This document shows, one piece after another, positions 1 to 30,994 of a stretch of 34,714 nucleotides of DNA. Source of the DNA: Chrysophaeum taylorii (Eukaryota; Sar; Pelagophyceae; Pelagomonadales; Pelagomonadaceae); contig JAQMWT010000385.1 of NCBI GenBank assembly GCA_029834535.1, positions 1-34,714 of the forward strand, read 5' to 3'. The notes beneath the pieces are model-generated. The model was not told the DNA's origin. It was given only the letters and a program-made list of their open reading frames with translations, and did not search any database. The stretch's first letter is position 1, and the number at the start of each line of letters is the position of its first letter. The translations under genes were made by a program, and so were the position numbers.

Positions 1-833
1 TGCAGAGAAATCTGCTGCCTCTTACCCTTATCCGTCCGTTGAGAACGTGATCTCTTCCTTACCCTTCTTCTTCCTTTCTACACAATCAAATAGTCCTCTG
101 ATTTGTGCCTACGCTCATCATCATGGTCTAGCGCGTCCCGAGGTATGTAGCACTATACACTTAACCTTTCTCGTGTAGTTCTAGATGCCGCCTGTCGTGT
201 TCTGAGGATATAGGGAACATAACCTTTCATTCCCCGAATTAACCTTCCAGACGTTCACGATGAGACGGGATGGTTTCCCAGGTGACTTACCACTGCTTGC
301 TAAATGCTCTGCAGGTTATGGGCCCAGGCGGGTCCCTGAGAAACCATGTGTTAAAACGTGCACGTAACCTATGGGTATTGACTGTTACCGCGCCAGTTCA
401 GCCTCGACATGTGGCACGCTTGTCAATATATCGCCATTACCATTGGGCTGTATATAATATTTTTTTGCACACGTGATCGTGTAACCTTGTGTGCACCTGT
501 TCATAGCATCGTATTGTCATGTCAATGTTGATGTGTGTGTAATTGGCTAACCTGTACTCTTGCACACATGTTATGGAATATTTTGGGTACGTCCACTCGT
601 ACATTCCATGGCAATGCACTTAACAAGCTCCTTGAGAGCACCAAAACTAACCAGCTGCCTGAGTGACTACGCTTAGCGACACTACTCTGGACTCACAGCT
701 TGCACAGTCGTCATATAGACACATCTTTCCATCGAAAACGATGAGTGTACATAGACACCGATAGACAGACCCCTTAGAATGTCTAGACAGTGTCAACTGC
801 GTGACTGAACCCACAGGTTCCCCGTCAACTGCT
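1..833 (+). other. Probable LTR and leader of element A, non-coding
   Basis: There is no convincing gene. An AT-rich TATA-like stretch lies at 451-466 (TATATAATATTTTTTT), followed by a CACGTG E-box-like hexamer at 470-475. This is the best promoter candidate for element A. The position upstream of the gag-like frame suggests LTR plus untranslated leader, but I found no second LTR copy in the window to compare it with. Confidence 0.4.
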
Positions 834-2009
834 ATGGCAGAACACGCAGCACGAGCCGCACCCAAGGCGATCACAGGAAACCGGTTTCAGCTTCAGAACC
901 GCAAGGTATCCTTGCAAATCAAGCATATCAAGCAATTACTACGGTCCAGTCATGCCGATGCTTTCCTCGAGTACGACCCGTACGAAGCATATACTCGGTC
1001 ATGCAAGGACTACGAAATCCTCCGGAATCAAATTCTCGATCGCGTTTTCCTGGAATGGAAGACCGATAGGGCTGCTGACCTCCGTTTAGCTGTTGATGAA
1101 TTGCCCCCTGAGTATCAGGAATGGCATTTCACCAACGAAGCTTTCCCCACTTACCTGATGCAGAAGGTAGCTCAGCTAACTACTGTCTGTTACGACTATG
1201 AAGTCAAGGCATTACGTCCTGAAATCAATGCTCGTTTCTTAGAAGAGGAACGAATCTTAAATCGCGCGCACCCGAAGGCACTAGCTTTCGACACCCGTGT
1301 TCGTGCCCCGGTTACCATGTTTTCGTTAACTGCAGCTGACTGGCACACTTATCCGAACACGTACGCTACATTCTTGCATACTTACTTCAATCTTGAAAGT
1401 GTTGGAAAACCGGCACTTGCGGCCTGGCCCGCCATCAATGAGGTATACAACAAAAGTTATTTACCCAACAAGGCTCGAGCTATTATGCTCATCGCCTTTA
1501 GTCACTACGAGTCTGTTACGACTACTGATGTGTCTTATTTGAAACAGCAATTTAACTCTGTTGTTTATAATCCTAACTGGTATGTCCATGTATTTATCGA
1601 AGCTGTCCTAGCATTTAGGCAAATCTCTTACCAACTTAACCAGGAAGAGACTGACCTTCAATTCGACTTTGGCACTCTTTGCAGAAAAATCTATGAAGAG
1701 ATACATCGGCATTATGCCGATAATACCAGCAACAACCGTTACGATCGTGGTTGGGTAGATTGGTGTTATATGTACGAAACCCGATCTTCATCTCGACCTG
1801 TGCCAGAAGCTGAACGATTGTGTCACCCTACCAACCCTAGCTACATTTTAGAATACGCATTAGACCTTTACAATGTCGTATCAAATGGGTCGAACAAAAG
1901 ACGTTTAGAACGCCCTGTTTCTTGGCAACCCTATGTCGAAGGTTTATCATCTCAACCAAAGCCAAAGTTACTACTTACACACACTTTGGACTCATCAGAC
2001 AAAGTCTGA
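834..2009 (+). CDS. Gag-like N-terminal region of element A polyprotein
   Basis: This is an open frame of about 390 residues from the first ATG at 834; the frame is open a little further upstream, but only with GTG. It is rich in Tyr, Arg, Leu and Glu and predicted mostly helical, as expected for a capsid-type protein. I see no CCHC zinc knuckle and no catalytic motif. The assignment to gag rests on its position upstream of the protease in the same direction. Coding seems to continue in the frame that is open at 1922-2620, so a frame change falls in the overlap near 1985-2009. This could be decay or a translational shift; I see no classical slippery heptamer. Confidence 0.55.
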   Translation: MAEHAARAAPKAITGNRFQLQNRKVSLQIKHIKQLLRSSHADAFLEYDPYEAYTRSCKDYEILRNQILDRVFLEWKTDRAADLRLAVDELPPEYQEWHFTNEAFPTYLMQKVAQLTTVCYDYEVKALRPEINARFLEEERILNRAHPKALAFDTRVRAPVTMFSLTAADWHTYPNTYATFLHTYFNLESVGKPALAAWPAINEVYNKSYLPNKARAIMLIAFSHYESVTTTDVSYLKQQFNSVVYNPNWYVHVFIEAVLAFRQISYQLNQEETDLQFDFGTLCRKIYEEIHRHYADNTSNNRYDRGWVDWCYMYETRSSSRPVPEAERLCHPTNPSYILEYALDLYNVVSNGSNKRRLERPVSWQPYVEGLSSQPKPKLLLTHTLDSSDKV

Positions 2010-2913
2010 CTCAAACTGCTAACACACTCGCCTTCATCACTTCGTCCCAACCTGGTACATCTTCCACGTTTAATGCTAGACGCTTGCGTAACTCTAATGA
2101 TGCTCGCCAGCCTTTCTCTCGCAGCGATTTATCGTATTATCGTCCTGGTGATTCTTACGTCACCAAGAAAACTGCCGGACAGTCCCATGACCGTCCAATT
2201 TACCCCCGCACTTTTGACAGGTCCTCTCGGTCTAACATGAAATTATTAGATCGAACAAACCACACCTTAAACACCCTGCGAGAACAGTGTAGCGAACTCA
2301 CGAAGCATGTGACAGATAATGATACCACGGCTCAGCTACAACATAATATCAACAAGTTATTTGAGACTCTATTACAATCAGCTGACATTCTGTCAACGAC
2401 ATCTACTGAGGACAACAGTAGTTTACTTCGTCTAAACGAACAGCTCATGTTTGCAGAAGACATCATTTATGATGTAGACGTTCATCTATCCTCGACCGAA
2501 AAGTCGTTAAACTACGTGGAGCCACAACACCATACTGTCGTTACTGCTCCCACCCCAACACAACTCCTTCTACTACAAACACACAGGGTAGTCCTTCCAA
2601 TACTGTGTCTAAGTGTCTAATCTCTTTACCGCTTCCGCCATCTCGGCTTTACCACCAGCATTATTGTCCAGGCTATCTTCACAGGTCCAATCTGCCCTCA
2701 ACCTACCATCACAAGCCGAAACCAAAGGGATGCCGATCATACTTCGCTATCGTCATTTGACGAAAAGCACGGCATGGCTGATGAGGCTGACGAACCATCA
2801 CCACCTGTTCAACCGATCATTATTCCAACTAATCTGTTATTGCTGAAGACTTCTTTACAGCCAGCCTCTCCACTACTTGCCCACATTCGGAAAACGCCTT
2901 CCTCACCAACTAC
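2010..2913 (+). pseudogene. Continuation of gag-like region with frame changes
   Basis: After the frame change near 2000 the protein continues in the frame ending at 2620. It has a basic Ser/Arg/Tyr-rich part, then a helical, possibly coiled-coil stretch around 2250-2480, then the motif STEKSLNY at 2492-2515. Beyond about 2560 the sequence is Thr/Pro-rich and the frame is lost. Coding-like composition reappears in another frame at 2702-2910, acidic then proline-rich, before the protease frame. I read this as the C-terminal part of gag and a linker, damaged by small insertions or deletions. Confidence 0.45.
2492..2515 (+). other. SLNY motif 1, candidate polyprotein cleavage site (gag / protease)
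   Basis: The frame reads STEKSLNY followed by VEPQ. It lies between the gag-like region and the retropepsin. The nucleotide core GTCGTTAAACTA is shared with motif copies elsewhere in elements A and B. Confidence 0.5.
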
Positions 2914-3561
2914 ATGAAGGTAAACAGTGTCCCTCCACATTGCTCTTTTCTATATTTTGACTCTTGTGCTACCATCTCATTGATGTCCACCTACGATTTC
3001 GCAATACCCAATCATATAATTCCATTGGACTCCAACTACGCGCCGATTGTTATTCAGACGGCAACAGGACAACAACGGGCATCACACATGATGTTAACAC
3101 GCAACATCGTTATTCCCCTACCAGATCATCCACAAGTTGGCTATGTTAAGATCGACTTCGCTTTATGTCTTCAGCCAGTGCATGACCGACATCTCGCTAT
3201 CCTGAGCATGCTCGAGTGGAACCAGACGAACCTTACCACTGTGTTCAATGATCGAGCTGAGCCAAAGCTCAGCGCTGTCACGAGCCGCATAGACAAAGAT
3301 GTACGTATACCCATACACTATGTAGCAGCTAATTTACCTGCTCTCCCTTGTCTCGCTTACAACATCGCTCGCGACAAGCAACTCGAACTTCGTTCCCTCG
3401 CATTTCCCCTCAAGCGATACCATGAAAACAGGGATCTACTGGCATACTACGACTACCTACTCCAAAGTGTTTTACCAGATCGCCCGTGGATTCGCCCTTT
3501 GGTTCTCAATCTTCGGAAACAGAACAAGTTTGTTCAGCAAAATACGCAGCCATTAACTTGA
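2914..3561 (+). CDS. Retropepsin-type aspartic protease of element A
   Basis: The frame encodes about 215 residues. Near the start, YFDSCATISLM (about residues 14-24) matches the active-site region of retropepsins, with Asp-Ser-Cys in place of the usual Asp-Ser/Thr-Gly. About 75 residues later HLAILSMLEW matches the C-terminal flap-side motif that is usually hydrophobic-hydrophobic-Leu-Gly. Such proteases act as dimers and cut the element polyprotein. The frame closes at a TGA (3559-3561), and the same frame reopens at once into the methyltransferase. The stop could therefore be a point mutation or a readthrough stop. The Gly-to-Cys change in the triad could reduce activity. Confidence 0.65.
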   Translation: MKVNSVPPHCSFLYFDSCATISLMSTYDFAIPNHIIPLDSNYAPIVIQTATGQQRASHMMLTRNIVIPLPDHPQVGYVKIDFALCLQPVHDRHLAILSMLEWNQTNLTTVFNDRAEPKLSAVTSRIDKDVRIPIHYVAANLPALPCLAYNIARDKQLELRSLAFPLKRYHENRDLLAYYDYLLQSVLPDRPWIRPLVLNLRKQNKFVQQNTQPLT

Positions 3562-5487
3562 CTACTTTCACGCCCAGTGTTTCTCTCACAAGAGTCCAAT
3601 CTCCGCAAACCCTCTGTCATGTTACTTTGTTCTGGTTTGTCAACTCCGGCGTTCCTGTCTCAAGCCACTAATGACTTAGGCTTAAATATCAATGTAAAAG
3701 TTGTTGTTGAGTCTGATGATACGCTTGTTCGTATGTTACGCCACCGTTTTCCTACTGTACTATTATTTGAATCTCTCCCCGCCTATATTAACCATCTTCA
3801 CCTAATCTCACCAGAGGAAAGGCGCACATTCTATTGTGATATAATTGAGATCACTCCTCCCTGCACAAACAGGAACTTACTAAAACAGCATAAGACAGAA
3901 GACTTACACAGCCTGCTGGACGACTCTCTTTTAGACAGCATGTTGTCTGTCATCAAGCTACTCCAGCCCTTGGTGCTACTGGCTGAGATGACGCCTCCGC
4001 ACAAATACTGTCATCAAGACCACATCACAGTGGCCAATCTCATCCATTCTACTCTCGATTACTGTGTCGATGTTGTTGACAGGTTCCCGACCTACCTCTG
4101 TGGCGACTACCAATCTAGAGAAAGGTGGATATGCATCGCACGCAGATATTCTACTGGACCAATTAAAATAGTATCGTGGCCCATCCTCCATCCACGCCCC
4201 TTCCTAAAGATCGTGGATGATCTACAAGCTATTCCCAAGCGCCTTTGGCTACCTAACCACATATCCAAAGACTGGATCCGGGTGTTCCCCGATCCTCCAT
4301 ATATCCCCGTTCCTAAAACGTTTGCACCTTACTCTCGCACAGGTTCTGTTCAGCTTACTATGGACCTTGAATCCCTCAATATGTTACTGCTTCGCCTTCA
4401 CTCACAACAGGCTCGCGAGCAACGTACTCACTCTGTTCAATCCGAGTGTACTTATCATCAGTTGTGCTTTAAACGCTACTCTATGGAGCCATTACCCAAT
4501 GCAACACATCCTATACACGTCAAGATTCTTACAGTCCTCTATAACGTGTTTGCAAGCTTACATACTAACTCACCCACTCCTGTGTCATATTACATAGCAG
4601 CTTTCGAAACTAACCAACCGTCACACAGGTTATTACTTACAACCTCATCAACATCACACAACTCCTACTTCTTAACTGGTGGCCACCATTCCGACGGCAA
4701 CCTCACCATAGAGAACGCCACCACAAAAAAATTCAACTCCCATCAACGCCTTTGGAAGCACGTATACGTTCACTGCTTCCGACATCCCCCGCGACCGGGA
4801 CAGGTCCATATATCTGGAGCCGTTTATGGGTTACTTGTGGATAGTCCAAGCCCTTCTCCAAGTTGGCTCCGCTACCACCTATGGCACCGCCATACAAAAC
4901 CTCGTGTCCAGATGCGCTCTCGTGATGCCTGGCTGCCTTACCTACAAGGCCACCGACAACTCTTTCGATTACAAGGATTCTCTTTTTGCTCTGGAAGATC
5001 ATCACCTATCTCATAGTCGCTATATAGGGTACCTTCGTGGAAGTGACCGCAAACTTGGCTCTAAAATCCACTCAATGCTTGCTCCATTGCCAACCGTCCG
5101 AGGGTATGCCAATATTATTTTACTCGACCCTCGCAACGGGAAATTACGCTACCCCACTCGACCGGAGTTGATTCGTGCTAACAACCACACCAAACAACAG
5201 GAATCTTTCCTCTTGTCTCTACGCCATGACCTTTGCTGTGACATGCTCAGCAATGCTCTGCCTGCCGGTACGTACAGCACTCTGTACAAGCACCTTTCGC
5301 TCATCGTCGCCGATATTAAATCCCTTATGTTGGACCCTACCTTCCAACATACTGCTGCCGTGACGAAGAAATCCTATGTATCCAATTTCATGACCGTTGA
5401 CCAAGCCTCCACCACGTGCAGCACAGATACCTTGTCTTTGGCACAATCTTTTATGATGTCCATTTCCAGCAACTGCTTGACTGAAAT
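3562..5487 (+). CDS. C5 cytosine DNA methyltransferase domain in the element A polyprotein
   Basis: Conserved motifs of C5 DNA methyltransferases appear in order. Motif I is VMLLCSGLSTPAF (from 3616). Motif II is VVVESDDTLVRMLRHRFP. Motif IV is TPPCTN, with the catalytic Pro-Cys at 3859-3864. Motif VI is PLVLLAEM, with the key Glu at 3985-3987. Motif VIII is DYQSRERWICIARR (Gln at 4111). After about 340 residues of variable target-recognition region come motif IX (RYPTRPELI, from about 5147) and motif X (SNALPAGT, 5249-5272). The enzyme would transfer a methyl group from S-adenosylmethionine to cytosine. The frame shifts by +1 at an A7 run (4725-4731). Motif VI has Glu-Met instead of Glu-Asn, and motif I lacks the usual Gly-Gly, so activity of this copy is uncertain. 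It sits between protease and integrase in the same direction, so it is part of the element. Confidence 0.8.
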
Positions 5488-5500
5488 GTCGTTAAACTAT
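5480..5500 (+). other. SLNY motif 2, candidate cleavage site (methyltransferase / integrase)
   Basis: The frame reads TEMSLNY followed by ISSS, between methyltransferase motif X and the integrase zinc finger. The nucleotide core GTCGTTAAACTA is the same as in motif 1. Confidence 0.5.
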
Positions 5501-6567
5501 ATATCTTCGTCCTACGGAGATACTCTCGCTACTCGTGATAATGAGGACGCACCTCCAAGTGACCCTGCTGTGCACCAGGATGACGACGCACCGCCTTCCC
5601 CTGCCTTAGACACCGAACTCGAGTTCGATGTTCGGCGCAACCGGCACATTCCCGCTCATCCAATTCCTCGTAAGTCCCTCGCACACGGATCCACCGAATA
5701 TCTCAATGCCAAAGAACGTGCTAATCGCTTTCACCGGGTGCATCACTGCCCCGACAACGTCGCTGCCAAGGCCCCCAACGTACTTGCTCGCCCTGGATTC
5801 TCTGCTTCTGACATACCATATCGCGACTTATGCACCGACTGCATCGCACACAACAAGCGCCACCCGCACAAGCATTTCAATGCGACCAAGCCTTCTTTGA
5901 GCAAACTCACAAAGCCGGCGAAGTCTGGGCGTGCGACGGCGGCTATGTGACCATCCCATCCGAATGGGGAGGCTTCACACATATCATCGTCTTCAAGGAA
6001 CTCATTTCGAAATTTCTCTTGGTGTACTTTACACGCACCACCAACGCCACGGAGTTCACTCAAGCTCTGGATTTTGTGTATGACTTCTGTCGTACACAAC
6101 TCAATGTGCACATGCGCACCCTCTACTCCGATGCATTCAAGCCTTACTTTAGCCAGCACATTACCTCCCCGTACCGCGTCGATAAGGGCATTCAACTCAT
6201 TGCCTTCCCGCCGTACATGCACCACTTTAACATTGAAGTTGAGTCTGCCATCGGTTTCATCGCCTCCGCCTCCTCAACTCGCCTTCGTTCTCTCCTTAAT
6301 GCTCACTATCGTGGCGCCAAGATCGTGGAACCCGCTATCATGTTCCCATGGGCGGTGATACACACCGTTCAAAGCTATAACCTTCTCCCGAACGCCACGC
6401 TCGAGCGCATTCATCATGCTATTCTGAGTCCGCAACAGCTACTCTACAACCAACTCAGCACTCCCCAATACGGTATGCTCAAGATTTTTGGCGCTGAATG
6501 TTACCTCCTATTGGAGCCCCATGAACACCACAAGTGGGAAATGTTACCTCCTATTGGAGCCCCATGA
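5501..6567 (+). CDS. Copia-type integrase of element A (zinc finger and catalytic core)
   Basis: An acidic linker is followed by a His-His-Cys-Cys zinc-binding region (HRVHHCPDN, then CTDCIAHNKRHPH, about 5731-5865). Then comes the catalytic core: WACDGGY (Asp at 5935-5937), LYSDAF (second Asp) and FNIEVESAI (Glu 34 or 36 residues later, a DD35E-type spacing). This enzyme inserts the cDNA into the host genome. The zinc finger and core are in different frames, joined by a -1 change near 5885-5895. The frame stops at 6565-6567 because of a 43-bp tandem duplication. Without that duplication it would run on into the next open frame. All three catalytic residues are present. Confidence 0.8.
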
Positions 6568-6583
6568 ACACCACAAGTGGGAA
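6498..6583 (+). repeat. 43-bp tandem duplication inside the integrase
   Basis: The segment 6498-6540 is repeated at 6541-6583 without a visible mismatch. Forty-three is not a multiple of three, so the second copy shifts the frame by one and causes the stop at 6565. Confidence 0.95.
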
Positions 6584-7749
6584 CCGTGCCGCCGCAAATA
6601 TCTGTATCTCTGTTGCGCCAACGCACAAAACCCGCTCGTCTCCCCACGCGTCGACCATCTCGCTGACGTCGTCCTCAACCCTGAAAACGGACAAATTCGT
6701 GTTTCGTCCAAGCTGCAATTCCTCTACATGTTGCAGCATCCTACTCCTGATCCTGAACTAGCCCCTCCGCCACACGCTCCTTCCGCGCCTTTCTCGCTCA
6801 CACCCCACACCACTATCCAAGACTATGTCATTCAGAGGGGGACAAGGACTCCTCATCCTCAGAGGGGGCATTCCCCACCTCCTTCCGCTCCTCCTTCTTC
6901 GTCCCCTACTCCGGCCACTTCTCCCTCTTCCGACGCTATCGCCGACGAATCTGGCTCTATGTCACCGCCGCCCTTGCTTCCTTCTTACAAAGACCTTTTT
7001 GCACAAGATGACCTCATTCTTGTCCCAGGTTCCAAACAGCCTAACACTCGCAAGGCCACTTCTATGAAAACTATCCGAGCCCGGTTACAAGCGTCTACTA
7101 TTGGTGCTTACAAGGCCGCTGGTGGCAAACTCGCCGATTTCCGCTGGGATCTTCGCCACCACTTTCTTACGTTTAAGTCTCCCGCCCTCTCCGCCCTTCA
7201 TCTCCGTGGTGGTATCCTCTGGTCTGCTATCTGCTCGGAGGGGGAACATGCGTTGTTAGCTCGTCTTCTTCTCCCGTTGCGCACTGACTTACTTGCCCGC
7301 TACCCGCACGTCGATGGTTACTTCGCCCACGCCAAGTGCGCATCCAGCATCCCAGCTGCAACCTTCTCGACTGCTGATGGTTCACCTACGTGCCCTATTC
7401 CTCAGCCCCTTTTATCGGCGTTCACTGAACACGCTGCTGCCTTCGGCACTTCTTCCTTACAATATGCACTTACGTACCTGGCGCCGACCAGCTTTATTGA
7501 TCACAACTCATCCGAGTTTGGCGCTACTTCTGTATCTCTCGCTGACTTGGAGGAATACCTTCTGGTCTCTACAGAGTTTATCACCCAGGTCTTACGTACC
7601 GACCCTACTATCCATATCCAACTGGAATCTGCCCCTACTACTCCTACCGACGCTGTTTCCGCTTATCCCGAAGTTGCGCACACTGCCTCGACCGCAACGT
7701 CGCTAAACTATAATTCACCAGCCACTGTTGGTCCCGACGAATATAACTA
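6584..7749 (+). CDS. Integrase C-terminal extension and unknown domain of element A
   Basis: The integrase C-terminal part is followed by a Pro/Ser-rich linker (about 6740-6960), which is usual between copia integrase and reverse transcriptase. Then comes a folded-looking segment of about 230 residues (about 6980-7690) that I do not recognise. It has no YVDD box and no other reverse transcriptase motif. It ends at TATSLNY (7691-7711), and 12 codons later at a TAA supplied by the flanking palindrome. Element A would normally continue here with reverse transcriptase. The domain could be an accessory module or a very divergent N-terminal extension of the polymerase. Confidence 0.55.
7691..7711 (+). 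other. SLNY motif 3, candidate cleavage site before the missing reverse transcriptase
   Basis: The frame reads TATSLNY followed by NSPA, at the end of the unknown domain. The nucleotide core has one change (GTCGCTAAACTA), silent at the Leu codon. Confidence 0.5.
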
Positions 7750-7905
7750 ACTAACTAACTTCAGACCTCTCCCGAGCATGGGAGCCAGGCCGGACCGACA
7801 GGAGCCAGTCCTGTGAATAGCCAGTCCTGTGAATTCCGGACTGGCTCCTGTCGGTCCGGCCTGGCTCCCATGCTCGGGAGAGGTCTGAAGTTAGTTAGTT
7901 AGTTA
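7744..7905. repeat. Perfect palindrome, 68-bp arms, 26-nt loop
   Basis: Arms 7744-7811 and 7838-7905 are exact reverse complements; the spacer is 7812-7837. The outer end is four units of TAAC / GTTA. The spacer contains a short direct repeat (CCAGTCCTGTGAAT). A diverged single arm lies at 17509-17577, at the 3' end of a LINE-like fragment. The palindrome may therefore be two LINE 3' tails joined in inverted orientation, or a foldback element. It truncates element A. Confidence 0.95.
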
Positions 7906-12158: not shown

Positions 12159-15100
12159 TCACCGCTTGACTTGCGATTGAGACACTAAGCCAAGCGTTTC
12201 TATACCGACACTTGAAAGACTGCAAGTGAGACACACAATCCCTTTTGCTGAGCTGCGGTACTTCGAGCCACAATAAGAACATGCTACACAAGATGACCCT
12301 CGATAAATTGGTAACAGGTCGTCGCATGCAATATCGAAGGGATTACGCTCATCATACTGTAACTTATGTTCATTGCGGGCTTTTTCTTCGCTTCTCTTCA
12401 GGACTACTAGAGCTTTATTTCGCAAGTCACCCTTCCCAACGGCAACATCCGGCAACTCAAGAATCCGACGTGCAAATGAAGCCGCATAGATGTAATTTCC
12501 ACCCTTGTAAGTTTGTGACATAGCCAGATTCAATGCAAGAGCCTGGTGCGCTGGCTGTAAACTGCAATGGGTGAAGTATGCAGCAAGTTCCATCTGCCTG
12601 GCACCTGCAGCTTCCCCATTCGCATTCTTGAGTCGAATAGCTGTGAGATATTCACGGCATATGTCCAGGAGTTCTTTCACCTGAATTACATTAAGTACGT
12701 GTTTCCAACCGACAAAGTAGATAAAAGAGATATACTGACCTCGTTCGACGCACTGCGTGTTTGAGCAACGATCAATGGAAGGGACACGATAATATCAGCG
12801 AATGCATCCTTGGCAGCACAAAAACTGCCGCGATGAAATAACTTGTATGCCGACTTTAAACAGTGGATCAGAGTTTGCATTCTGATTGGAGTAGCCGGCA
12901 AGGCAGTCGATGAAGAATCTTCGTTTGAGATACGGAGAACAGGCAAGCGGAGAGCACCAGCAATGGGAATGCCAGGTACTTGACTCTGCGAACTAACCAT
13001 TATATCTAAGAATTTAGACCGCAAGGGTAAGAAATTAACCAGTGCAATCTGACGGTTCAGGAGTTGCATGGCAGTCTCGAATGAACCGGCTGCAACGTGG
13101 TCAGCAGCATGCCCGGAGTTGCTGCACCACTTGCTCACAGTCGAAGAACCAGACCGCGGGACAGAGAATGCCCCAGAAGAGTCCAAGCCATCACGGGGGA
13201 AGGCACCTTGTACATCATACGACAAGGTTCCTAGTTCCTCACCTAAATCCAGATCTGCATTCCAACCATCTGACTCTCCGTCATCATGTCCTACCACCTG
13301 ATTTACTGTGTCCAGATTGGCATCCCAGCCATCCCCAGCTGGTTCATCCTCAGAAACTTCCTCAGCTTGGATTTCACGACCGGCATACAAATTCTTCTGA
13401 GCGATAGACAGCAACGGCCAATTCTCACCTCTTATAATGGGAGTTGGAGGCTGTAGCAAGAATGCTTCATCACACACGCGAGGCACAGCTCTGCCAGTTG
13501 ACAGTGAAAGCTCCAGCAGGCGATCTTGCTCCTCTTTCAATCCATGTGTCAAACTGGTCAAGTACGCAAGAGACAATTGCCCTGCCTCCTCCAATACCCG
13601 CACGCGTTCGCGTGCATCGCCCAAGAACAGCGCATTATGAAATCGAGCCATGATATCATGACGCATTTCCGCTATCTTGAGCATTTTGCGCAATTTATCT
13701 GTGTTGCCCGTCAACAGATAAAGGAATGACAGCCTCTCAAAGTTTTTAGTCCGCTGGTACGCCATTTCCACAACTTGATAGTTGCCCTGGCGCAAGGCTT
13801 CAACACCCAAACGATGCCATGAAAGGTCGTCTCCCATCTCATATGCAGTGTTCATTGCGATTTCTATATTGCCACATGCGAGCGCCAGTTTGAAGCGTGA
13901 TTTCAGATCTTCTACGAAGTGCAGTGCAACCTCGGGGTATCCCTTATCCTGGAGGTATGAGACAAGTGCTTTCCCACATAATTTTGCAGTGCGGATTACT
14001 TGCATCACTTCGTGGTAGTTCTTGTCTTCTAGAGCCAACTTGAACAGAGCTTCCGTCATATCAATCGCGATGTTCCGTGTTTTGCACTCTCTATCCAGAC
14101 AGCATAATTGACCACTGAGTACACGAGTAACATAAATTGGAGCGTCCAGCGTTCGTAGAATGCCAGTATCTCCATTGGAGAGGCAATATTTTATATGATT
14201 CAGAGTGGTGTAAACAAATATTCGATCAGTTGTATCCCACATACCGCTTTTGACACGTACAGTCTCTGTTACACTACATTGCTGTTCCATCTCGCGGTTG
14301 GCGATTGTAATGCCTGCGAATACAGTTGTCAATCGTAAACATGCAACTGCACCATGTTTGCTAACGAGTGCAGCGAGGGAACAGTCCTTGTTCCAGTACA
14401 CATACTTGACGCGTTGTACTTGCAGCTCTGCAAGCACACGCCGAGACTGCGGTTCGAAGAGCGTTACACGATCCTCAGAGCGCAATAGAAGTCGTCCTGA
14501 TGTCCCTGCAAAGAACATCCTGTCAGGACTAGGATTCGGTGGTGATATTGACTTGCGCTTTTCATTACCAAGGTCTTTGAGCAGAATCTGAAAAAGCATG
14601 TCAAAAGCCGGTAAAATTGATTTCGACAAGGTGATGACTAACCTGTCTATTTTTGTCAAGAATGGCGAAACGGTTACGTGCGATGAAGACCGCTGATATA
14701 GATTGGCCACGCTTCAAGTCACTCGGCTCAGTCTGGGTCTGATTAGATTCAGAATCCAGTAAGATTAATTCATATGACCCTCCATCAACGTCAAAAAAAA
14801 GAAGAACATGTATTTCAGCTGGATTAAGAGAGTTTAGTTCCATCGATCGAGGGGTGCCACTAGCAGTTTGACCGGCACGTCGCAACGACATGGCTGGCAC
14901 GTCGCGCCCAGTGCCGAAATCATAAATACGTAGATACTTATCCTTCACATAAAACAGACGGTTGCCATACAAGGCGAAGGGTGGCCGCTCACGTTCTAGT
15001 TTGAACACAATCATTCCAGAGTCATGACCCGCTCCAAGAAGATTTTGTTCGGGATGCGCTGCTAAAATCCAGAAACGATCATTCTCACGGCGAAAAGTCT

Positions 15101-16007
15101 GAACACCCATGCGTTTCGAAATATCCCAAACACGGATTGATCGGTCCTCGGAGTTCGATATTATCAGCTCGTGTTTAGGGTGAAATACCACACATGACAC
15201 ATTGTTTGTATGTCCACGCATCGTGTCAACTTCCCATGCTTTGATCTCATTCATACGCCAGAGCTTAACTTGCCGATCATCTGCGCCGCTAATGATCAAT
15301 GGCAAATTTGGGTGAAACGACGCCCAGTTGACACCCCTATCATGTCCTTCCAAGACATACTTCACTACCGCATCATTACCTCCAAATAAATCAGCATTTA
15401 CCCTGGAGACAACGCTAGCGGTACCAGTACTTCCTGCTCCGCCAAGGTCCTGAAGTTGCCCACTCCCAACAGCATTACTTGGCGCTCCACGCACAGTCTT
15501 CTTGCGCAACCCAGTTATGTCCCAAACTCGGACAGTTTGATCCAGCGATGCTGATACAATCAAATCATCTTTAGGATGAAATGATGCGCACATAACGTAG
15601 TGATTATGGCCTGTAAGAACGCTGACACAGGAACGGCTCTGCCAATTCCAGATCCTTATGGTTTGGTCATCACTTGCTGAAACAAGCCATGGGTAATCAG
15701 AGTGGAAGCAAACCGTCCGTATGTAGTCCAGATGGCCAAGGAGTGTGAATAAGCATCGCCGCAACTTGTAATCCCACAACTTAATGCGGTAGTCATCACC
15801 TCCGCTCACAATAAGGGGCTGAACTCGATGAAAGTCCACACCTCTTACTGGTCCTTCATGTTCATCGAATCTGTCCAATAACGTGCCCATACGAAAGTCC
15901 CACAGCTGAATGACCCCATTGTGGAGACTAGTCAAAATCCAGGGCCGGTGATGATGAAAAGCCAGCCCTTTGACGCGATTGCTCTTTGACTCGAATTTAG
16001 TCAACAT
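12159..16007 (-). CDS. COPA: Coatomer subunit alpha (COPI coat), three exons
   Basis: Exons are 16007-14643, 14587-12740 and 12680-12159, giving 455 + 616 + 173 = 1244 residues, close to the usual family length of about 1200. Both junctions are phase 0. The start is taken at [17 protein letters not shown], the conserved N-terminus of the family; an ATG four codons upstream is in frame but not needed. Residues 1-300 are WD40 repeats ([60 protein letters not shown]). A second beta-propeller and an alpha-solenoid follow, then an acidic Trp-Asp linker in exon 2 ([16 protein letters not shown]). The C-terminal domain contains [14 protein letters not shown] and [16 protein letters not shown]. In the COPI coat this subunit binds dilysine cargo signals for Golgi-to-ER transport. 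No breaks are seen, so this is the one intact host gene in the window. Confidence 0.97.
12681..12739 (-). other. COPA: Coatomer alpha intron 2 (59 bp)
   Basis: On the minus strand the donor is GAG/GTCAGT and the acceptor is AATTCAG/GTGAAAG. Removing it joins the solenoid to the C-terminal domain in phase 0. Confidence 0.9.
14588..14642 (-). other. COPA: Coatomer alpha intron 1 (55 bp)
   Basis: On the minus strand the donor is CAG/GTTAGT and the acceptor is TTTTTCAG/ATTCTG. Phase 0. A pyrimidine tract directly precedes the acceptor. Confidence 0.92.
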
Positions 16008-16188
16008 CGCACGAAACAATTTGCTTCGGCTTCGGCTCTTCCGCTCGTGATATAGCTTTTTATAAGGTCGACTGCTACAGGCAACATTGAACTAGGGGGG
16101 GTTAAAGGAACCAGGTGGTTAACCGCGCAGCCCTCCCCTGCCACTGAAGCCCGGGGAAAGTCTATAGACGTCGAAAGGAGGTTCGCAT
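16008..16188 (-). promoter_or_regulatory. COPA: Coatomer alpha promoter region
   Basis: On the minus strand TTATAAAAA occupies 16065-16057, about 50 bases before the ATG. This could be a TATA box with a short leader. The first Helitron-end copy begins only about 120 bases further upstream, so the promoter must be compact or overlap the repeat. Confidence 0.5.
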
Positions 16189-17186
16189 CCCTCGATTTAG
16201 GGTAAGGATCAGGTATGCACGCGAGCCAGACATTGATCCTCCAAGCCGTCTACGGCGACCTCGCAGACTGTTTCCACGACCCGCGGCGGCTCTTTCAGCG
16301 CGCCATTCTCACGCCCCGTCGAAACGATGTTGTCGATGCTGATAACGCGCGCATGACCGCGGCCTTTTTTTCCCGGAGACGAGGCGTCGGAGTTCTTTTC
16401 GGCCGACTAGGTTGGGTCGGAAGACGACGCCTCGCTCTTTACAGTCGAGTTTTCGACTCCCTGACAACCAACGGCATGCTGACTTTGATCGCGAGCTTAA
16501 GGTCTTCGCAACCTCGACCCGTCGCACGGCCACTGCAACGGTACCAGATACATGATTGATCGTGGCGTGTCACCGAGGCTCCTCCAACCTGTATCCCTTA
16601 AGGCCCGCCGACGCCAAACGATCAACAAGAGCCAGGGCCAGACGCCCCGCGAGATCGGCGTCCTCTTGCCCAAGCCCGTCTTCTGTCACGTCCAGCTCTA
16701 CGTGGCTCTCTGTCGATCGGCAACCCCGAGGATATGCTCTTCTGAGTCGACGACTCCACCCTACCCCACACGTGCTGCGCAATACCGATAAGCCCCCTCC
16801 CGGCGTCTACACGCGCACTGTAAGTGAACTTGCTGGGACCAGGTGAACTTACTGGAACCAGCTGAACTTACGGAGGTTAGAGATTGGGACTAGGTGAAAT
16901 TAGTAACCAGGCGAACTTACTGGGACCAAGTGAACTTACTGGGGTTTTTAGAGTAAACTCAAAGGCTAGCGGCGTGTGCGGATCAAAGCAGCTTAGATTG
17001 GCGAGGGTGAGAGGGACGAGTTCAAAGGAGAGGGGTGAGTGGATGTGAGCACGAGTGGGCTTACGCCGAACTTACTGGCAATAATACTGGGGTTAGAGAT
17101 TGGGACTAGGTGAACTTACTGGGACCAGGTGAACTTACTGGGGTTAGAGATTGGGACTAGGTGAACTTACTGGCGAACTTACTGGC
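16189..17186 (+). mobile_element. Helitron-end copy 1: Pif1-helicase remnant plus GTGAACTTACTGG repeats
   Basis: It starts at CCCTCGATTTAGGGTAAGG. Three pieces match the C-terminal part of Helitron Pif1-type helicases, in different frames: RLFQRAILTPRRNDVVDADN (16285-16344), NLDPSHGHCNGTRY (about 16509-16551) and INKSQGQTPREIGV with PVFCHVQLYVALCR (about 16620-16715). A PGDEASEFFSAD-like piece lies between them at 16374-16409, closed by a stop. The helicase Walker motifs and any Rep domain are absent. The last 370 bases hold about ten copies of GTGAACTTACTGG, many in the longer form AGGTGAACTTACTGGGACC. It is a non-autonomous remnant. Confidence 0.75.
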
Positions 17187-17577
17187 CTGAGATCGCAAAC
17201 CGTTGGTTGCGATGGAGGACGGCGCCTAACACGCTTGCTCCCTGCGGCGGCCCCGGCCGTCCCGGAGTGAGACGGTGCCTGCTCGCCTCCCGGGCTGGCC
17301 GGTTAGCACCCGGAAAGTCCGCGCTGGGATGGGGTTCGCTCGGTTGGGCAGAACGCCGTCGGACAGGTCGATTGTTCGTGGACCAACACGTTTGCGGCCT
17401 GCGACGCTTTTGCAAGACTTCGCACAAGACCGCGCGCAGTGGCGGTCCGTCATCAACGAGTCCTCGTCCTCGCCTCTGCCCCAACTGCGTGATTTTCCTC
17501 TGTGATTCCGGATCGGCTCCTGCCTGTCCGGCCTGGCTCCCATGCTCGGGAGAGGTCTGAAGTTAGTTAGTTAGTTA
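17187..17577 (+). mobile_element. LINE-like 3' fragment with GTTA tail
   Basis: The plus frame ending at 17505 reads RGPTRLRPATLLQDFAQDRA followed by QWRSVINE. This resembles the C-terminal tail found after reverse transcriptase in many LINEs (A-x-D-R-x-x-W-R). A 72-bp untranslated stretch and a (GTTA)4 tail follow, ending at 17577. The last 69 bases match the arm of the palindrome at 7744-7905. A short coding remnant, short 3' UTR and simple-repeat tail are what a 5'-truncated LINE insertion looks like. The homology is short, so this is a moderate call. Confidence 0.5.
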
Positions 17578-17625
17578 CTGGCCTGCACTTGTATTGGTAT
17601 TATATAGAAGCCATTAAAAAAACGC

Positions 17626-18821
17626 CTATGCAAAATTAGACAAACCAACAGCCAACAGCCCAGCTTGTATCTCGGAAATGCTCTCGTCGTCGAGCACTGC
17701 GGCGACGAAGGAGGCGTCAACGGTGACTGCGGCTGGGTCTTCGTAGTCGGAGCGCCCGGCCTCGAGAAGGGGCTCGTCCTCGTCGTGGCAGTTGCTCAGC
17801 GCCTGCATGAGGAAGTCGCCGAGCTCCTCAGTGCACTTGTTGAGGAGGCGGAGGTTGACATAGGTAAAGAGAAGGCGATGGAAGGTGAGGGTGTAGAGAC
17901 GGTTGCGCGTCTTGGTGAGGATGAGCTTGTGGGTCTTGCAGACTCGCTCGACGTCGGCAGACTGGACAGTCATCTCGTCGATGCGGATGGCGATGCGGGT
18001 GATCTTCGGGAATTGCTTGATGCCGGTGAGTCGCCAGTCGTCGGCGACGGACATCATCCGCGACTGCTTGAAGATCTCGCGCTCGGTGGACGTCTTGAGT
18101 CGCATGTTGGCGGGCGGTTTGATGAGGGACTGCTTGCGTTCGATGAGCACGCCCCACTGGCCCCGGCGGTGAACAATCTGCTTGAGCTCGGTGAAGGCCA
18201 CCTCGCGGTCAGTAGAGTCTGGGTAGAACCGCTCGATTAACTTGATGCCGTGGTCTTCCCAGTCTGTCACATTAAGAAGCTCATCATACGTTGGCGTTGT
18301 GAATGGGTCTACCAGCCAGGCGAAGATGTGCAGCGAGTCCAGGAGACGACCAACCTGCCGCAATGGAGAACGGGAGAGCGCATCCGACAACAAACTTGGT
18401 GATCGTCGCGGTGATGCGCTGTGCACGCGCGTCGTCACAACGGTCAAAGCAGCGAGTGACCCGGGCCTGCTTACTCTTACTGCTCGCGGCTAGCTCAAAC
18501 TCGGCTGTTCGCTTAGAGGGGACGCAGATTGATTCAGACTTGGCGCACGTCACCAGTTCCGTGGCCCTCTTCTCCATCGTGCTCAAAAAGCGTCTTCGTC
18601 GTACTGGTGGACTTGGCGACGCCGATTTAGACCTCATCAGTACTAAACTTGCACACAACAATATGATCCGCCCAGTACGACGCCGTCCATGTCTGCGTCT
18701 CCTTCGAATAGGTGCAGCCATGCGCCGCACAAGAATACGTCGTTTGATTCTCGGAATTCGTAGGTCCCTTGACGACGTAGTCCGCGACGATGCTCTTTTT
18801 GCGACCAACCTTCGGCACCAT
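17626..18821 (-). pseudogene. hAT-family transposase, internally deleted
   Basis: On the minus strand there is first a BED-type zinc finger (18821-18627: YSCAAHGCTYSKETQTW then HIVVC). In the next frame comes RITATITKFVVGCALPFSI, the conserved hAT segment before the catalytic domain. A further frame change at about 18350 leads to a frame of about 230 residues ending at 17626. That frame joins PFTTPTYDELLN (N-terminal side) directly to the C-terminal dimerisation region: FPKITRIAIRIDEMTVQSA, then DVERVCKTHKLILTKTRNRL. The central RNase-H-fold catalytic part is missing. It is therefore an internal-deletion derivative that cannot catalyse transposition but might still bind DNA or dimerise. Confidence 0.7.
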
Positions 18822-18902
18822 CGACGCAACCGCCTCTCAAAAGTACTCGACAACCAAGTACTGACGCGCTGAGAGGGTTTTCAAAGCGAAAATTGAAAAA
18901 AT

Positions 18903-19826
18903 ACAAGTGCAGGCCAGTAAGTTCACCTAGTCCAAATCTCTAACCCCAGTAAGTTCACCTGGTCCCAGCAAGTTTCATAAAAGTTCACCTGGTCAGTAAG
19001 TTCACCTAGCTCACACCCACTCCTTCGAGCTCGTCGCTCTCGCCTCCGCCAATCTAAGGCGCTTCGATCCGTACACGCCGCTAACCATTGAGTTTACTCT
19101 AAAACCCCCAGTAAGTCACATGGTCCCAGTAAGTTCACCTGGTCACTCAGTTCACCTAGTCCCAATCTCAAACCCCAGTAAGTTCACCTGGCCCAGTAAG
19201 CTCACCTACAGCGCGCGTGTAGACGCCGGGAGGGGGCTTATCGGTATTGCGCAGCACGTGTGGGGTAGGGTGGAGTCGTCGACTCAGAAGAGCATATCCT
19301 CGGGGTTGCCGATCGACAGAGAGCCACGTAGAGCTGGACGTGACAGAAGACGGGCTTGGGCAAGAGGACGCCGGCCTCGCGGGGCGTCTGGCCCTGGCTC
19401 TTGTTGATCGTTTGGCGTCGGCGGGCCTTAAGGGATACAGGTTGGAGGAGCCTCGGTGACACGACACGATCGATCATGTATCTGGTACCGTTGCAGTGGC
19501 CGTGCGACGGGTAGAGGTTGCGAAGACTTTAAGCTCGCGATCAAAGTCAGCATGCCGTTGGTTGTCAGGGAGTTGAAAACTCGACTGTAAAGAGCGAGGC
19601 GTCGGCTTCCGACCAAACCTAGTCGGCCGAAAAGAACTCCGACGCCTCGTCTCCGCGGTCATGCGCGCGTTGTCAGCATCGACAACATCGTTTCGACGGG
19701 GCGTGAGAATGGCGCGCTGAAAGAGCCGCCGCGGCTCGTGGAAATAGTCTGCGAGGTCGCCGTAGACGGCTTGGAGGATCAATGTGTGGCTCGCGGGCCT
19801 ACATGACCCTTACCCTAAATCGGGGG
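18903..19826 (-). mobile_element. Helitron-end copy 2 (minus)
   Basis: This has the same structure as copy 1 in reverse. The outer end at 18903 starts ACAAGTGCAGGCCAGTAAG and is followed by inverted GTGAACTTACTGG repeats. The helicase pieces follow (INKSQGQTPREAGV, PVFCHVQLYVALCR, NLDPSHGHCNGTRY, RLFQRAILTPRRNDVVDADN). The inner end is the CCCTCGATTTAGGG sequence, slightly altered, at about 19806-19826. Confidence 0.75.
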
Positions 19827-19923
19827 ACAAGCAGACAAACCCCCCCCTCTTAGCAGTCCTAACTACTAATCGACAGATGTTTGTCTGTCTGTCTGTCTGT
19901 TTGTTTGTTTGTCTGTCTGTTTG
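19827..19923. repeat. TGTC/TGTT microsatellite between inverted copies 2 and 3
   Basis: A C-rich CCCCCCCTCTTAGCAGTC segment is followed by about twelve TGTC/TGTT units at 19876-19923. The same combination lies between or beside other copies (31.0, 31.9, 32.3 and 33.6 kb). Confidence 0.8.
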
Positions 19924-20880
19924 TCCCTCGATTTAGGGTAAGGATCAGGTAGGCGCGAGAGTAAGGATCAGGTAGGCGCGAGAGCCAGACAGTGAGCCTC
20001 CAAGCCGTCTACGGCGACCTCGCAGACTATTTCCACGACCCGCGGCGGCTCTTTCAGCGCGCCATTCTCACGCCCCGTCGAAACGATGTTGTCGATGCTG
20101 ACAACGCGCGCATGACCGCGGGTTGGGTCGGAAGCCGACGCCTCGCTCTTTACAGTCGAGTTTTCAACTCCCTGACAACCAACGGCATGCTGACTTTGAT
20201 CGCGAGCTTAAAGTCTTCGCAACCTCGACCCGTCGCACGGCCACTGCAACGGTACCAGATACATGATCGATCGTGTCGTTGTCACCGAGGCTCCTCCAAC
20301 CTGTATCCCGTAAGGCCCGCCGACGCCAAACGATCACCAAGAGCCAGGGCCAGACGCCCCGCGAGGTCGGCGTCCTCTTGGCGAAGCCCGTCTTCTGCCA
20401 CGTCCAGCTCTACGTGGCTCTCTGTCGATCGGCAACCCCGAGGATATCCTCTTCTGAGTCGACGACTCCACCCTACCCCACACGTGCTGCGCAATACCGA
20501 TAAGCCCCCTCCCGGCGTCTACACGCGCACTGTAGGTGAACTTACTGGGACCAGGTGAACTTACTGGGGTTTGGGATTGGGACTAGGTGAACTTAGTGAC
20601 CAGGTGAACTTACTGGGATCAAGTGAACTTACTGGGGTTTTTAGAGTGAACGCAACGGCTAGCGGCGTGTACGGATCAAAGCAGCTTAGATTGGCGGAGG
20701 TGAGAGCGACGAGCTCGAAGGAGAGTGGGGTGAGTAGATGTGAGCACGAGTGGGCTTACGCCGAACTTACTGGGGTTAGAGATTGGGACTAGGTGAACTT
20801 ACTGGGACCAGGTGAACTTACTGGGGTTAGAGATTGGGACCAGGTGAACTTACTGGCGAACTTACTGGCCTGCACTTGTC
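19924..20880 (+). mobile_element. Helitron-end copy 3 (plus)
   Basis: This is close to copy 1 and forms an inverted pair with copy 2. It carries a 23-bp tandem duplication near 19938-19985 (GTAAGGATCAGGTAGGCGCG repeated) that copies 1 and 2 lack but copy 5 has. It ends in GTGAACTTACTGG repeats and ACTGGCCTGCACTTGT. Confidence 0.75.
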
Positions 20881-21277: not shown

Positions 21278-21656
21278 CGACTATATCGGTCGCAACGAAC
21301 TAGTGCATCTTGCATTCTCTACACGGTCCGGACAAGCCGTGCGCGCCCTGATCAAGCGCGCCGACAAGGAATTCCAGAAGGACCATTGCCGTGGGGAAGT
21401 TCCCCGGCCGGATACGTTTGTCGTCGGAAGTGACGACGCGCGATTTGGTGCTAACCGACGCGCAACCCGGGTACCGCTGCCGCAGGCGAGCGGAGTGAGA
21501 TCGCAACTCACGGATAAGGCATTGTTTGCCGGGCAGAGACGAGTTCTGCCGCCCACCGTACGGATAGATTTGTCGGTGGAAGACGCACGCAACGACGATA
21601 TTACGCGTGTCGTGGACGATTAGAAGTTCCGGAGCCGAAGGAGCACGAGAACGACG
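21278..21656 (+). other. Leader of element B
   Basis: Non-coding leader between primer site and gag start; short open frames on both strands look fortuitous. It would contain the packaging signal if the element is organised like its relatives. Confidence 0.4.
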
Positions 21657-22301
21657 ATGACTCAATTATTTTGGACCCGTTCTGATCTCGGCCGACTAGA
21701 ACGAGCCAGAGCCGATACGGAAGACGATGATGCTGCCGTCGAGCAGCTACGATATGAAGAACCGCCAAGCCGTCAGGATGAGACGAACGAGCGGAATAAT
21801 GATGATGATAATGATGACGATGAAGAAGAGCACGATACAGAAGTTGACGAGGAAGAAGAGCTAAACTACAACTACAAGCCCACGGAGAGACCGGCGGGAG
21901 GACGATCGACAGCTCCGTCAACGCGTGCAGAACCCCCGGATGCAACGAAAATGAATGAGTTCTACGAAGCTCACTTGCGGGCATTACGCGAAGAGAACGA
22001 ACGCGCGCAAGAACGACTTTTAAAACTCTTAGGGGAAGAGAACGAACGAAAAGAACGGCTACACCGGAAGGAGATAAAAATAATGCGAGAGCAACTGCGT
22101 ATGGCCAATGCTCGAGCAGACGCCCTCCAAGATCAAGCAAGCGCGTTGACACGGGAAATAGATGAATTGCGTATGCCGAATCGCCCGAGGCGAGCGAACG
22201 GTCTCGAGGGAGAATTCCGAACTTCGAAGGTACCGCCGCCCACGCGAACGCGAGCGAAAGTCAGGAAGCCGCGCGACGACGACGACGAGTCGTCCGAGAT
22301 G

Positions 22302-22322
22302 ACCGAAACGTCGTTAAACTAC
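22302..22322 (+). other. SLNY motif in element B gag, copy 1
   Basis: TETSLNY followed by DQEQ. The nucleotides ACGTCGTTAAACTACG are identical to copy 2 at 22395-22410. Confidence 0.5.
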
Positions 22323-22388
22323 GATCAAGAGCAATCCAAGTTGAAGGAGCTCACCCAAACCAAAATCCCCACAGAATCGAAGAATTTG

Positions 22389-22409
22389 ACCGAAACGTCG
22401 TTAAACTAC
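22389..22409 (+). other. SLNY motif in element B gag, copy 2
   Basis: TETSLNY followed by GSKP, 29 codons after copy 1. Weaker relatives are ELNYNY at 21861-21875 and ASVNY at 24435-24449, the latter upstream of the protease. Confidence 0.5.
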
Positions 22410-24650
22410 GGGTCGAAGCCGTCTACCGCTTCTAACCCGGTGTCACCGTTGGTGGCACGATATGATTTGTCGTCAGCTGACACAACCCTCGGTCTTGACG
22501 ACGCGCCGGAGTTATGTGTGAATCCGATTTACGAGCCCCGTGCAGCCGATAACGCCCAAAGTAAAGGACCCGCCGCTGCTACGCTCGATGCTATGAGTTT
22601 ACCTCCGAACATTCAAGTGGATGGCACGTCGCCTCCACGATCGATCGACGATGCGTCGCAGAGGATTACCTCGAATGATAAGCGCGCACCTGAGTACACA
22701 CCCATCGAACGTCACGTGCCCTTTGGTGGCCAGTTTTTGACAGATATGACGTCGGGGACGACGCCTTCTTCTTTTGCAGCCCCCCCCCGACGAACCGACT
22801 GCAGACGTTTTTGCAGATGTTTCATTCCCTTTGACGATGGCAGACAATTCGTGTGCCGACATTTTTAGTGACGAGGCGATTGCCGATATTCGAAGCGATG
22901 GAGTGGATGAGAGGCCGAGTGAAACGGCCGAGAAAATGAATACGAAAGCGGAAGAGATGAAGAATCTTATAACGCATGAACTGCCTTTGGAGCTCAGTGA
23001 AAGCCCTGGCGTATTACTCACGAACGAAGAGTTCAAAGATTTTCAGCCTGCATATGATGATGGCTACGTGATAAAGAAAGATCCCGAACATACTATGAGG
23101 ATGAGTATAGCTGCCGCCCGGAACCGAATTTGGATGGGACGATCAGCATGGATAATAGGAAGATGAGCGTACCGACGATAAGGATACGAGCTCAATGTTT
23201 CCTGAAGAAGAAACCGCCAGAGCGGAAAGAAGTACAATTCCGACCCCGAGACACGGAGTTATTGGCCAACCGAGATTTAATTTACGTTTGGTCGGAGGTT
23301 TGGCAAAAAGACGACGAAGGCGTCGATGTTTGGATAGACGAGACGATTGAGCCAGTTCGGATAGACTTGGGAGCACCAGTCGCCTACAGAGACGATCCAG
23401 AGGTACTAGGACCTGCCGAACTGACGCCAGAGAGAGACAAAGATAACAAGAGCCCCAGTCGAAGTTCGCGCCGGCACAGACCACGCCGATCGCGCGACGA
23501 CGAATACGACGGAGGCCGACACCAATATAATTCGAGTTTTTCGAGCGCAACGCTCGCATTTACGACCCCTTGCGGTCAACAGTTACCATTAGGAGTGATG
23601 GTGTACCCGAACACGGACACCCGCACCGACGACGCAGCCGACGCCCTTGCCGCGGCCGCATTCGAAGATCTTGCTCGCCCACCGATGGACGAGCCACCCA
23701 ACGACGTGCTGACCAATCGTCGGTCTTTGGCACACATTTATGAGCAGATGTCGAGCGATGAGCTCGAAGATTCGAGCGAGGAACTTGAAGCTACACGATA
23801 CTGGGAAGGCGATTCAGATTCGGAAGATGAAGAAGCTACACTCTGTGAACCAGTGTCTGCGTTAACGTTATTTGACGAGTCGTCCATGGACGACCCACCG
23901 TTTATTTTTGATGAGGAAGCCCTCGATGCCATCGGCTTATCTTTGGACCCTCCAGAGACGACCGCTGGCGACCGAACTGGCTGTGAGCCAGACATGAATT
24001 TCTGCAGTGATAGCTCGTGCGCGCATTCGACTGAAGAGACGATGACCAGCGCGAGTATTGCAGACGACGATTTTACGACAGAGTTGACGTCGGGGACGAC
24101 GCCATCTTTTCCTGCGGACCCCCCCGAAACGGTTTCGATTACTACGGATCGAGACACGGATGCGCCGCCGGAAGAAAAGGATAGATTTATGAAGAAGATT
24201 TGCAGCGTTCTCGAGTGTGACGAAGACGAGCAGACGTGGAACCTGCAGGATTGGTGGACGAAAGCTCAGAATTTCTTGCTGAAGAAGCCACCAGAACAAC
24301 CGCACAGCTGCAGACTCAAAGCCGCAGCTGACACGGAACCGATCGCCGATGCTGATGAGGATCAGCAGGCGACGAATGAATTTACAGATGCATTCTGGAA
24401 AGACGAAATGAATGATTTATGGGAGGGGTCCTTTGCTTCCGTGAACTACGAAGACCAGGATCCCCTACCAGCACTGATTCCCTCTGAGATTGTCTTGGAG
24501 GAAGAGCGGAAGCCGCCAGATAAAGAGGCTGCCGCGAGCATTATGGCGAAGACGCCAACAACAGATAATACGAAAGCTCAAGCCGCGGTATCGATGCCCA
24601 ACCCCGGAGATGAGCGAATCAGAGCCCGATGTGCTCACACTTCGTTGACG

Positions 24651-25300: not shown

Positions 25301-25308
25301 GGTAGCCA

Positions 25309-30669: not shown

Positions 30670-30994
30670 CCTGGCGGCAACTCCCGCCTCCTAAGGCTTA
30701 CCCCTCTTCTAGCCCCCCATCAGGGCACCCTACTCCGTTCCGATGATGTCAGAGTCTCTGACATCATCTCCTTTTCCGTGACATGCGTCACCCTGATTTC
30801 TGATTTTCGATTATCCTTGATCATAAAGCAACAGCCGATCCTCAAGTTGAGAGGACCAGGCGCAGGAGTTGTTTGTGGTCGCGTGGCGGGAGAACGGCCA
30901 TCCTCGTCCAGTGATCCCACCAAGGGCACGGACGCGAGCGGCGAGCCAGGATTCGAAGGCACGCCAGGTAGCCCCAAATTCTCCTTACGCCACA
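30670..30994 (+). repeat. 3' LTR of element B
   Basis: It matches the 5' LTR. Its first bases are altered (CCTGGCGG instead of TGTGGCGG), but its end CTTACGCCACA is intact. Differences from the 5' LTR are mostly small losses: shorter C run, shorter hairpin loop, and CCCCTAAAATCC versus CCCCAAATTC. Confidence 0.9.

Follow-up and report, generated by a model that had tools for sequence, protein, structure and literature searches.

A cytosine-5 methyltransferase-like domain in the Pol of copia-type retrotransposons of Chrysophaeum taylorii, preceded in two families by a conserved UGA

The window, by which we mean the whole 34,714-nucleotide stretch analyzed here (contig C385), begins with a copia-type LTR retrotransposon that is truncated at its 3' end and occupies positions 1 to 7747, with all of its features on the + strand. 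The 5' LTR (1 to 313, 313 bp, TGCAGAG...CTCTGCA) starts at the first base of the contig. The window family is called F1 below. A further F1 insertion, in locus L049, has a 3' LTR to which the window LTR is 96% identical over its full length, and both LTRs have TG...CA termini. Immediately 3' of the LTR stands GGTTATGGGCCCAGG, as a candidate primer-binding site (GGTTATGGGCCCAGGCGG, 314 to 331, abutting the LTR). The primer tRNA of Drosophila copia is the initiator methionine tRNA (iMet), and we take the window site to be complementary to the anticodon arm of that tRNA, as in Drosophila copia. Counts of the predicted tRNA arm, CTGGGCCCATAACCCAG, were 7 in the genome and 0 in the control, and the genomic occurrences are presumably tRNA genes. 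Priming of Drosophila copia by a half-tRNA is described in passages of an earlier paper (PMC5371799).

The gag and protease region (834 to 3558, with Met at 834) is frame-broken and was recognized by tblastn with the gag and gag-pro frames of a less decayed F1 copy, L032 (77 to 93% identity); a protease-like motif, FDSCATIS, lies at 2956 to 2979. An in-frame UGA stop (3559 to 3561) separates this region from a methyltransferase (MTase) domain, and the next codon is CUA (3562 to 3564). The MTase N-lobe, with motifs I to VIII and the first part of the recognition region, is in frame 1 (3562 to 4731), and the remaining recognition region and motifs IX and X are in frame 2 (4727 to 5290, the end being approximate). 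Integrase and an SH3-like domain follow (5732 to 6540, frames 2 then 1), with an HH..CC zinc motif at 5732 to 5854 and a DDE core at 5926 to 6255; their Pfam matches (rve, E 5.8e-4; SH3_retrovirus, E 0.0041) are each under the curated cut-off. The last part of the element, the C-terminal portion of integrase or a linker (6521 to 7747, frame 2), aligns by tblastn with residues 974 to 1383 of L032 Pol. The window copy ends at 7747, short of the reverse transcriptase (RT), since RVT_2 begins at residue 1431 in L032 Pol, and its 3' LTR is missing. The reading frame shifts at about 4.73 kb (within the recognition region), 5.9 kb, and 6.5 kb, so this copy is dead. A foldback with 68-bp arms (7744 to 7811 and 7838 to 7905) abuts the truncated Pol end, and the same foldback is found at window positions 17500 to 17577 and in other loci (L034, 9203 to 9282; L029, 369 to 451; L050, 1156 to 1242).

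Elsewhere in the window, a host coatomer alpha (COPA) gene lies near the element (12159 to 16091, - strand). Large repeats, inverted as well as direct, lie at 16147 to 20872 and 30769 to 33615 together with a short AGTAAGTTCACCTGGTCC satellite, and a match to the C terminus of hAT transposase (17626 to 18489, - strand) lies amid repeats and is weak (E 0.0021, under the cut-off). Positions 21624 to 25487 (+ strand) hold two long frames of 414 and 808 codons that have no Pfam match, in a stretch that is partly repeated (22734, 24072). The second of these, the 808-codon frame, in which DTGS can be picked out by eye, could be the gag-protease of another retroelement.

The C5-MTases share named motifs that include I, II, IV (PC), VI (E), VIII (QxRxR), IX, and X. 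In the window, these are found in order along 3622 to 5269 (+ strand), with motif I (LLCSGLST, 3622 to 3645), motif II (VVVESDD, 3700 to 3720), motif IV (ITPPCTNRN, 3850 to 3876), motif VI (LAEMTPP, 3979 to 3999), and motif VIII (YQSRERW, 4108 to 4128) in frame 1, and motif IX (RYPTRPELIRANN, 5147 to 5185) and motif X (MLSNALPAG, 5243 to 5269) in frame 2. The positions bear out what the first-pass annotation had claimed for the order of the motifs and for the placement of the domain between protease and integrase, and the spacing of ~340 residues between motifs VIII and IX agrees with the length it gave for the target-recognition region. It had also described the motifs as directly visible in the translation; they are, but the reading frame is split in two, changing near 4.73 kb.

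A search of the 70.8-Mb genome, which the first-pass annotation had proposed for intact copies of the family, yielded relatives that we group into three families: F1, the window family (including L032, L034, and L030); F2 (including L033); and F3 (loci including L049 and L050 to L060). L032 is less decayed than the window copy and has the MTase motifs, integrase, and RVT_2 in a single frame of 1691 codons (rve, weak, E 0.0076; SH3, E 5.6e-4; RVT_2, E 7.7e-42), with integrase before RVT_2, which is the copia order. The F2 Pol of L033 (1952 codons) has a match to the C5-MTase profile PF00145, then a weak rve match, and then RVT_2 (E 1.6e-38). Integrase is also 5' of RVT_2 in L050, and rve is weak in all three. 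Among the first 30 RVT_2 matches, at least 15 have an F1 or F3 MTase 3.7 to 5.2 kb upstream on the same strand. F1 and F3 are 56% identical in the MTase core, 43% in the early part of the recognition region (82 residues), and 46% in the rest of that region together with motifs IX and X. Their identity is 54% for integrase and 63% for RT; for F1 and F2, these two domains are 26 to 35% identical. Since the MTase is kept in the same position across families that are this far apart in integrase and RT, it is not a passing capture.

Two further features of these loci can be recorded here. At ~4948 of L049, an F1 element sits within the MTase of an F3 element, and this nested copia pair orders the two insertions. 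F1 also has an ORF of 333 to 370 codons 3' of RNase H (L049, 5427 to 6536, - strand; L034, 2 to 1000, - strand), for which the only match is to a coiled coil (Sas-6_C_CC, E 0.0079, under the cut-off); it is possibly an extra gene of these copia elements.

Profile searches give different results for the three families. The window MTase piece alone has no Pfam match (3562 to 5016 at E ≤ 1; 3562 to 4731 at E ≤ 10), its search of the PDB returned one chain, which is unrelated (E 0.11), and a single-sequence AlphaFold2 model of the window N-lobe has a pLDDT of 31.7 and is uninformative about the fold. When 9 F1 rows other than the window copy were scanned singly against PF00145, L014 matched in register but under the cut-off (E 0.039), and the remaining 8 gave no match. 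For F3, L052 matched in register (E 0.2, under the cut-off, and ranking second behind an unrelated family), and L050, the other of the 2 rows scanned, did not match. In contrast, PF00145 is matched by all 13 F2 rows (A2; best E 5.1e-12), and in L033 the match (E 1.1e-7, 32.1 bits against a cut-off of 22) lies between protease and integrase. Thus, the profile match that the first-pass annotation had set as a check is lacking in the window copy but is present in relatives with the domain at the same place in Pol.

With a bacterial profile dominated by HhaI, F1 and F3 could not be told apart from shuffled decoys. The alignment of F1 and F2 profiles is colinear across the Cys, Glu, and Arg motifs, with an hhalign probability of 1.1% and an E value of 0.051, and for the N-lobe, 29 of 150 shuffles scored at least as high as the observed 14.7, with the reversed control higher still at 24.1. 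For the C-lobe (motifs IX and X), the F1/F2 score of 20.8 was reached by 0 of 150 shuffles, with the reversed control at 14.6, and BLASTP of the L032 C-lobe against the F2 C-lobe gave E 5.2e-5. That the window family matches no profile significantly and that the N-lobe scores no better than controls would be expected if the motif likeness were due to chance or to another Rossmann-like domain. However, the complete motif order with its catalytic residues, the PF00145-positive domain at the same Pol position in F2, and the C-lobe similarity make that explanation very improbable. Because relatives in the same genome carry an MTase in the same position, we identify the domain of the window copy as MTase-like, and the sequence comparisons support filing F1 and F3 as C5-MTase homologues through F2 rather than as PF00145 members by score.

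The host genome has PF00145-positive genes of its own. A Dnmt5-like gene (L031, 3968 to 9901, + strand), in which an MTase and a helicase-like part can be discerned by eye, and a DNMT2-like gene (L001, 1498 to 2577, + strand) are both open. The DNMT2-like gene is adjoined by a gene for a light-harvesting protein whose best matches are red-lineage antenna proteins (VCPI, PCPI, FCP, and acpPCI), which suggests a host that is probably an alga of the red lineage.

Retention of individual residues was scored over 22 F1 copies, with readable copies counted at each site (L030 has no MTase). All 20 readable copies have the catalytic Cys of motif IV, and all 21 have the Glu of motif VI. In the QxRxR of motif VIII, the last Arg is kept in 21 of 21 and the middle Arg in 20 of 21, and the Gly of motif I and the Asn of motif X are kept in 19 of 21 and 21 of 21, respectively. 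There are two deviations: in motif VI of F1 and F3, M replaces the N that most enzymes have, and in motif VIII of F2, S replaces Q. Median dN/dS in F1 is 0.12 for the core (204 pairs), 0.14 for motifs IX and X, 0.36 for the recognition region, and 0.37 for integrase, and in F2 it is 0.14 for the core, 0.21 for motifs IX and X, 0.20 for the recognition region, 0.19 for protease, and 0.13 for integrase, all of these values being biased downward by the fact that most copies were picked as best protein matches. F1 motifs IX and X lie outside the query used to pick copies, and their dN/dS is nearly as low as that of the core. Pooled pN/pS for the core is 0.13 in F1, 0.20 in F2, and 0.076 in F3 (10 copies). 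As the active-site residues are retained in related copies and strongly selected, the element probably uses its MTase. Together with RVT_2 in L032 and PF00145 in F2, these data uphold the central claim of the first-pass annotation, that a C5-MTase-like domain lies inside a copia-type polyprotein.

The UGA ahead of the MTase is conserved. It was surveyed in 21 distinct F1 loci, of which L021 gave no row, and in F3, in which L049 gave no row. A TGA lies between gag-protease and MTase in 20 of 20 F1 loci giving a row, and its context is TGA CTA in 18, TGA ATC in 1, and TGA ATA in 1. In 10 of 10 distinct F3 loci giving a row, the context is TGA CGC, 24 codons 5' of motif I. A later indel shifts the MTase out of the TGA frame in L016 and L020; it is in frame in the other 18 F1 loci, and the frame upstream of the TGA is open for at least 85 codons in 17 of these 18 and for at least 163 codons in all 10 F3 loci. 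The F2 element L033 has no such stop; there, gag overlaps Pol in another register. According to passages of PMC11166343, UGA CUA is known to be leaky, with ~1.5 to 2.9% readthrough by itself, and UGA CNN sites are classed among the leaky ones. No RNA structure beyond chance was found downstream of the UGA. Either the UGA could be a mark of ancestral decay or Pol could start afresh downstream of it, and the lack of a stimulating structure, the UGA-A contexts in 2 of 20 F1 loci, the two loci with the MTase out of frame, and the absence of the stop from L033 would all suit a stop that is not programmed. We consider this unlikely, however, as the TGA is present in every F1 and F3 locus giving a row although the two families are about half identical, the frame upstream of it is held open, and the long host and element frames tested have no internal TGA and fit the standard code. 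We conclude that the conserved UGA is a candidate programmed readthrough site and, because it is conserved 5' of the MTase, that in these two families the MTase is probably made as the first domain of a Gag-Pol produced by readthrough.

Our preferred reading, which we hold to be somewhat probable, is that a copia lineage captured a C5-MTase and fixed it in Pol, in the arrangement Gag-PR, (UGA), MTase-INT-RT-RH, and that the enzyme is particle-borne and methylates the nucleic acid of the element itself. A small fraction of ribosomes would read through the UGA, and the MTase would be made solely as the first domain of Gag-Pol and hence be packaged in the particle at the Gag-Pol ratio. There, while reverse transcription proceeds or once it is complete, it would methylate cytosines of the element's nucleic acid, with cDNA as the likeliest substrate and genomic RNA or the primer tRNA as possible ones. 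Such methylation may aid the survival or integration of the new copy and would leave no permanent heavy CpG mark.

CpG observed/expected ratios are 0.90 to 1.08 in the element loci listed and 0.90 in the COPA gene, with higher values elsewhere (1.20 in the rest of the window; 1.26 and 1.43 in two GC-rich host loci), so marked CpG depletion was not found in element loci. The fraction of C/T differences at CpG is 0.061 in F1 (0.048 to 0.074 in other contexts), 0.097 in F2 (0.053 to 0.103), and 0.108 in F3 (0.078 to 0.107). Because CpG is not markedly depleted, heavy and lasting CpG self-methylation is disfavored. The same observation, the M of motif VI in F1 and F3, and the fact that de Mendoza 2018 (PMC5890265), in the passages on the LINE case, raise RNA methylation would fit an MTase-fold domain that is real but acts on RNA (element RNA or primer tRNA) or mainly binds nucleic acid in Pol. 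In contrast, the retained Cys, Glu, and last Arg of QxRxR make a loss of catalysis unlikely, and we judge this alternative rather unlikely as a whole.

It seems quite unlikely that the enzyme works in trans on host chromatin or the host genome, as it might by recruiting or mimicking host silencing so that insertions are tolerated. The MTase matches listed are very many (94, 91, and 134 rows for F1, F2, and F3, from 1461, 773, and 1045 first-look candidates, rows not being copy numbers), and the host owns a Dnmt5-like gene; however, there is no sequence sign of nuclear action, and a low-yield readthrough product would better fit action within the particle.

We put forward a more specific form of our preferred reading only tentatively, as possible though doubtful. 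In a copia lineage with at least three families in one alga, the MTase would be an obligate first Pol domain, UGA-dosed in two of them and packaged, and would methylate the cDNA of the element itself ahead of integration, as a mark of self or of protection. Its recognition region, which changes faster, would follow recognition or restriction by the host.

That retrotransposons should carry the type of enzyme that hosts use for silencing them is a puzzle. The first-pass annotation had mentioned rare reports of retrotransposons with cytosine MTases in some algae and dinoflagellates, and such elements are borne out for LINE, two DIRS, and Gypsy elements in the passages of de Mendoza 2018 (PMC5890265) that describe them; the same passages state that the Copia superfamily in Symbiodinium has no DNMT domain. 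A 2025 Mol Biol Evol paper (PMC12344493) speaks in one sentence of embedded DNMT3s in LTR Copia and DIRS elements, but the citation given is de Mendoza 2018, where Gypsy is described, and the relevant passages give neither layout nor readthrough. A 2019 opinion paper lists Gypsy and DIRS in the part concerned (PMC6338049). The relevant portions of PMC12477816, PMC9998398, and PMC3145265 describe no copia-encoded C5-MTase, the first of these reporting an N4/N6-type MTase in a Sola DNA transposon, and none of the titles and abstract openings listed in searches of an open-licence library describes a copia Pol with this layout.

Among the systems presented in the passages of PMC5890265, KnitGypsy-Dnmt3 of Klebsormidium nitens is likewise an LTR retrotransposon whose Pol frame includes a C5-MTase, under purifying selection and with catalytic residues kept. 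It has a Gypsy Pol and a Dnmt3-class enzyme, whereas the window lineage has a copia Pol (RVT_2, integrase before RT), an MTase for which we claim no class and which lies between PR and INT, and a conserved UGA ahead of it. SymbioDIRS-Dnmt3 and SymbioLINE-Dnmt are also algal retrotransposons with C5-MTases and high copy number, and two SymbioDIRS enzymes methylate CG in yeast, but these elements belong to the DIRS (tyrosine recombinase) and LINE classes and not to copia. With Ty1/copia (Pseudoviridae), the window lineage shares the PR-INT-RT order, RVT_2, an HHCC-DDE integrase, and LTRs, and perhaps also an iMet-type primer site. It differs in having an MTase of ~570 residues between PR and INT, a UGA between gag-PR and Pol (F1 and F3), and an additional ORF 3' of RNase H (F1). 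Through the conserved UGA, the dose of MTase would be coupled to that of Gag-Pol, which predicts action in the particle, on cDNA or RNA. What is new here is a copia Pol with an MTase in this layout together with the conserved UGA, and copia thereby joins LINE, DIRS, and Gypsy, the classes reported in 2018.
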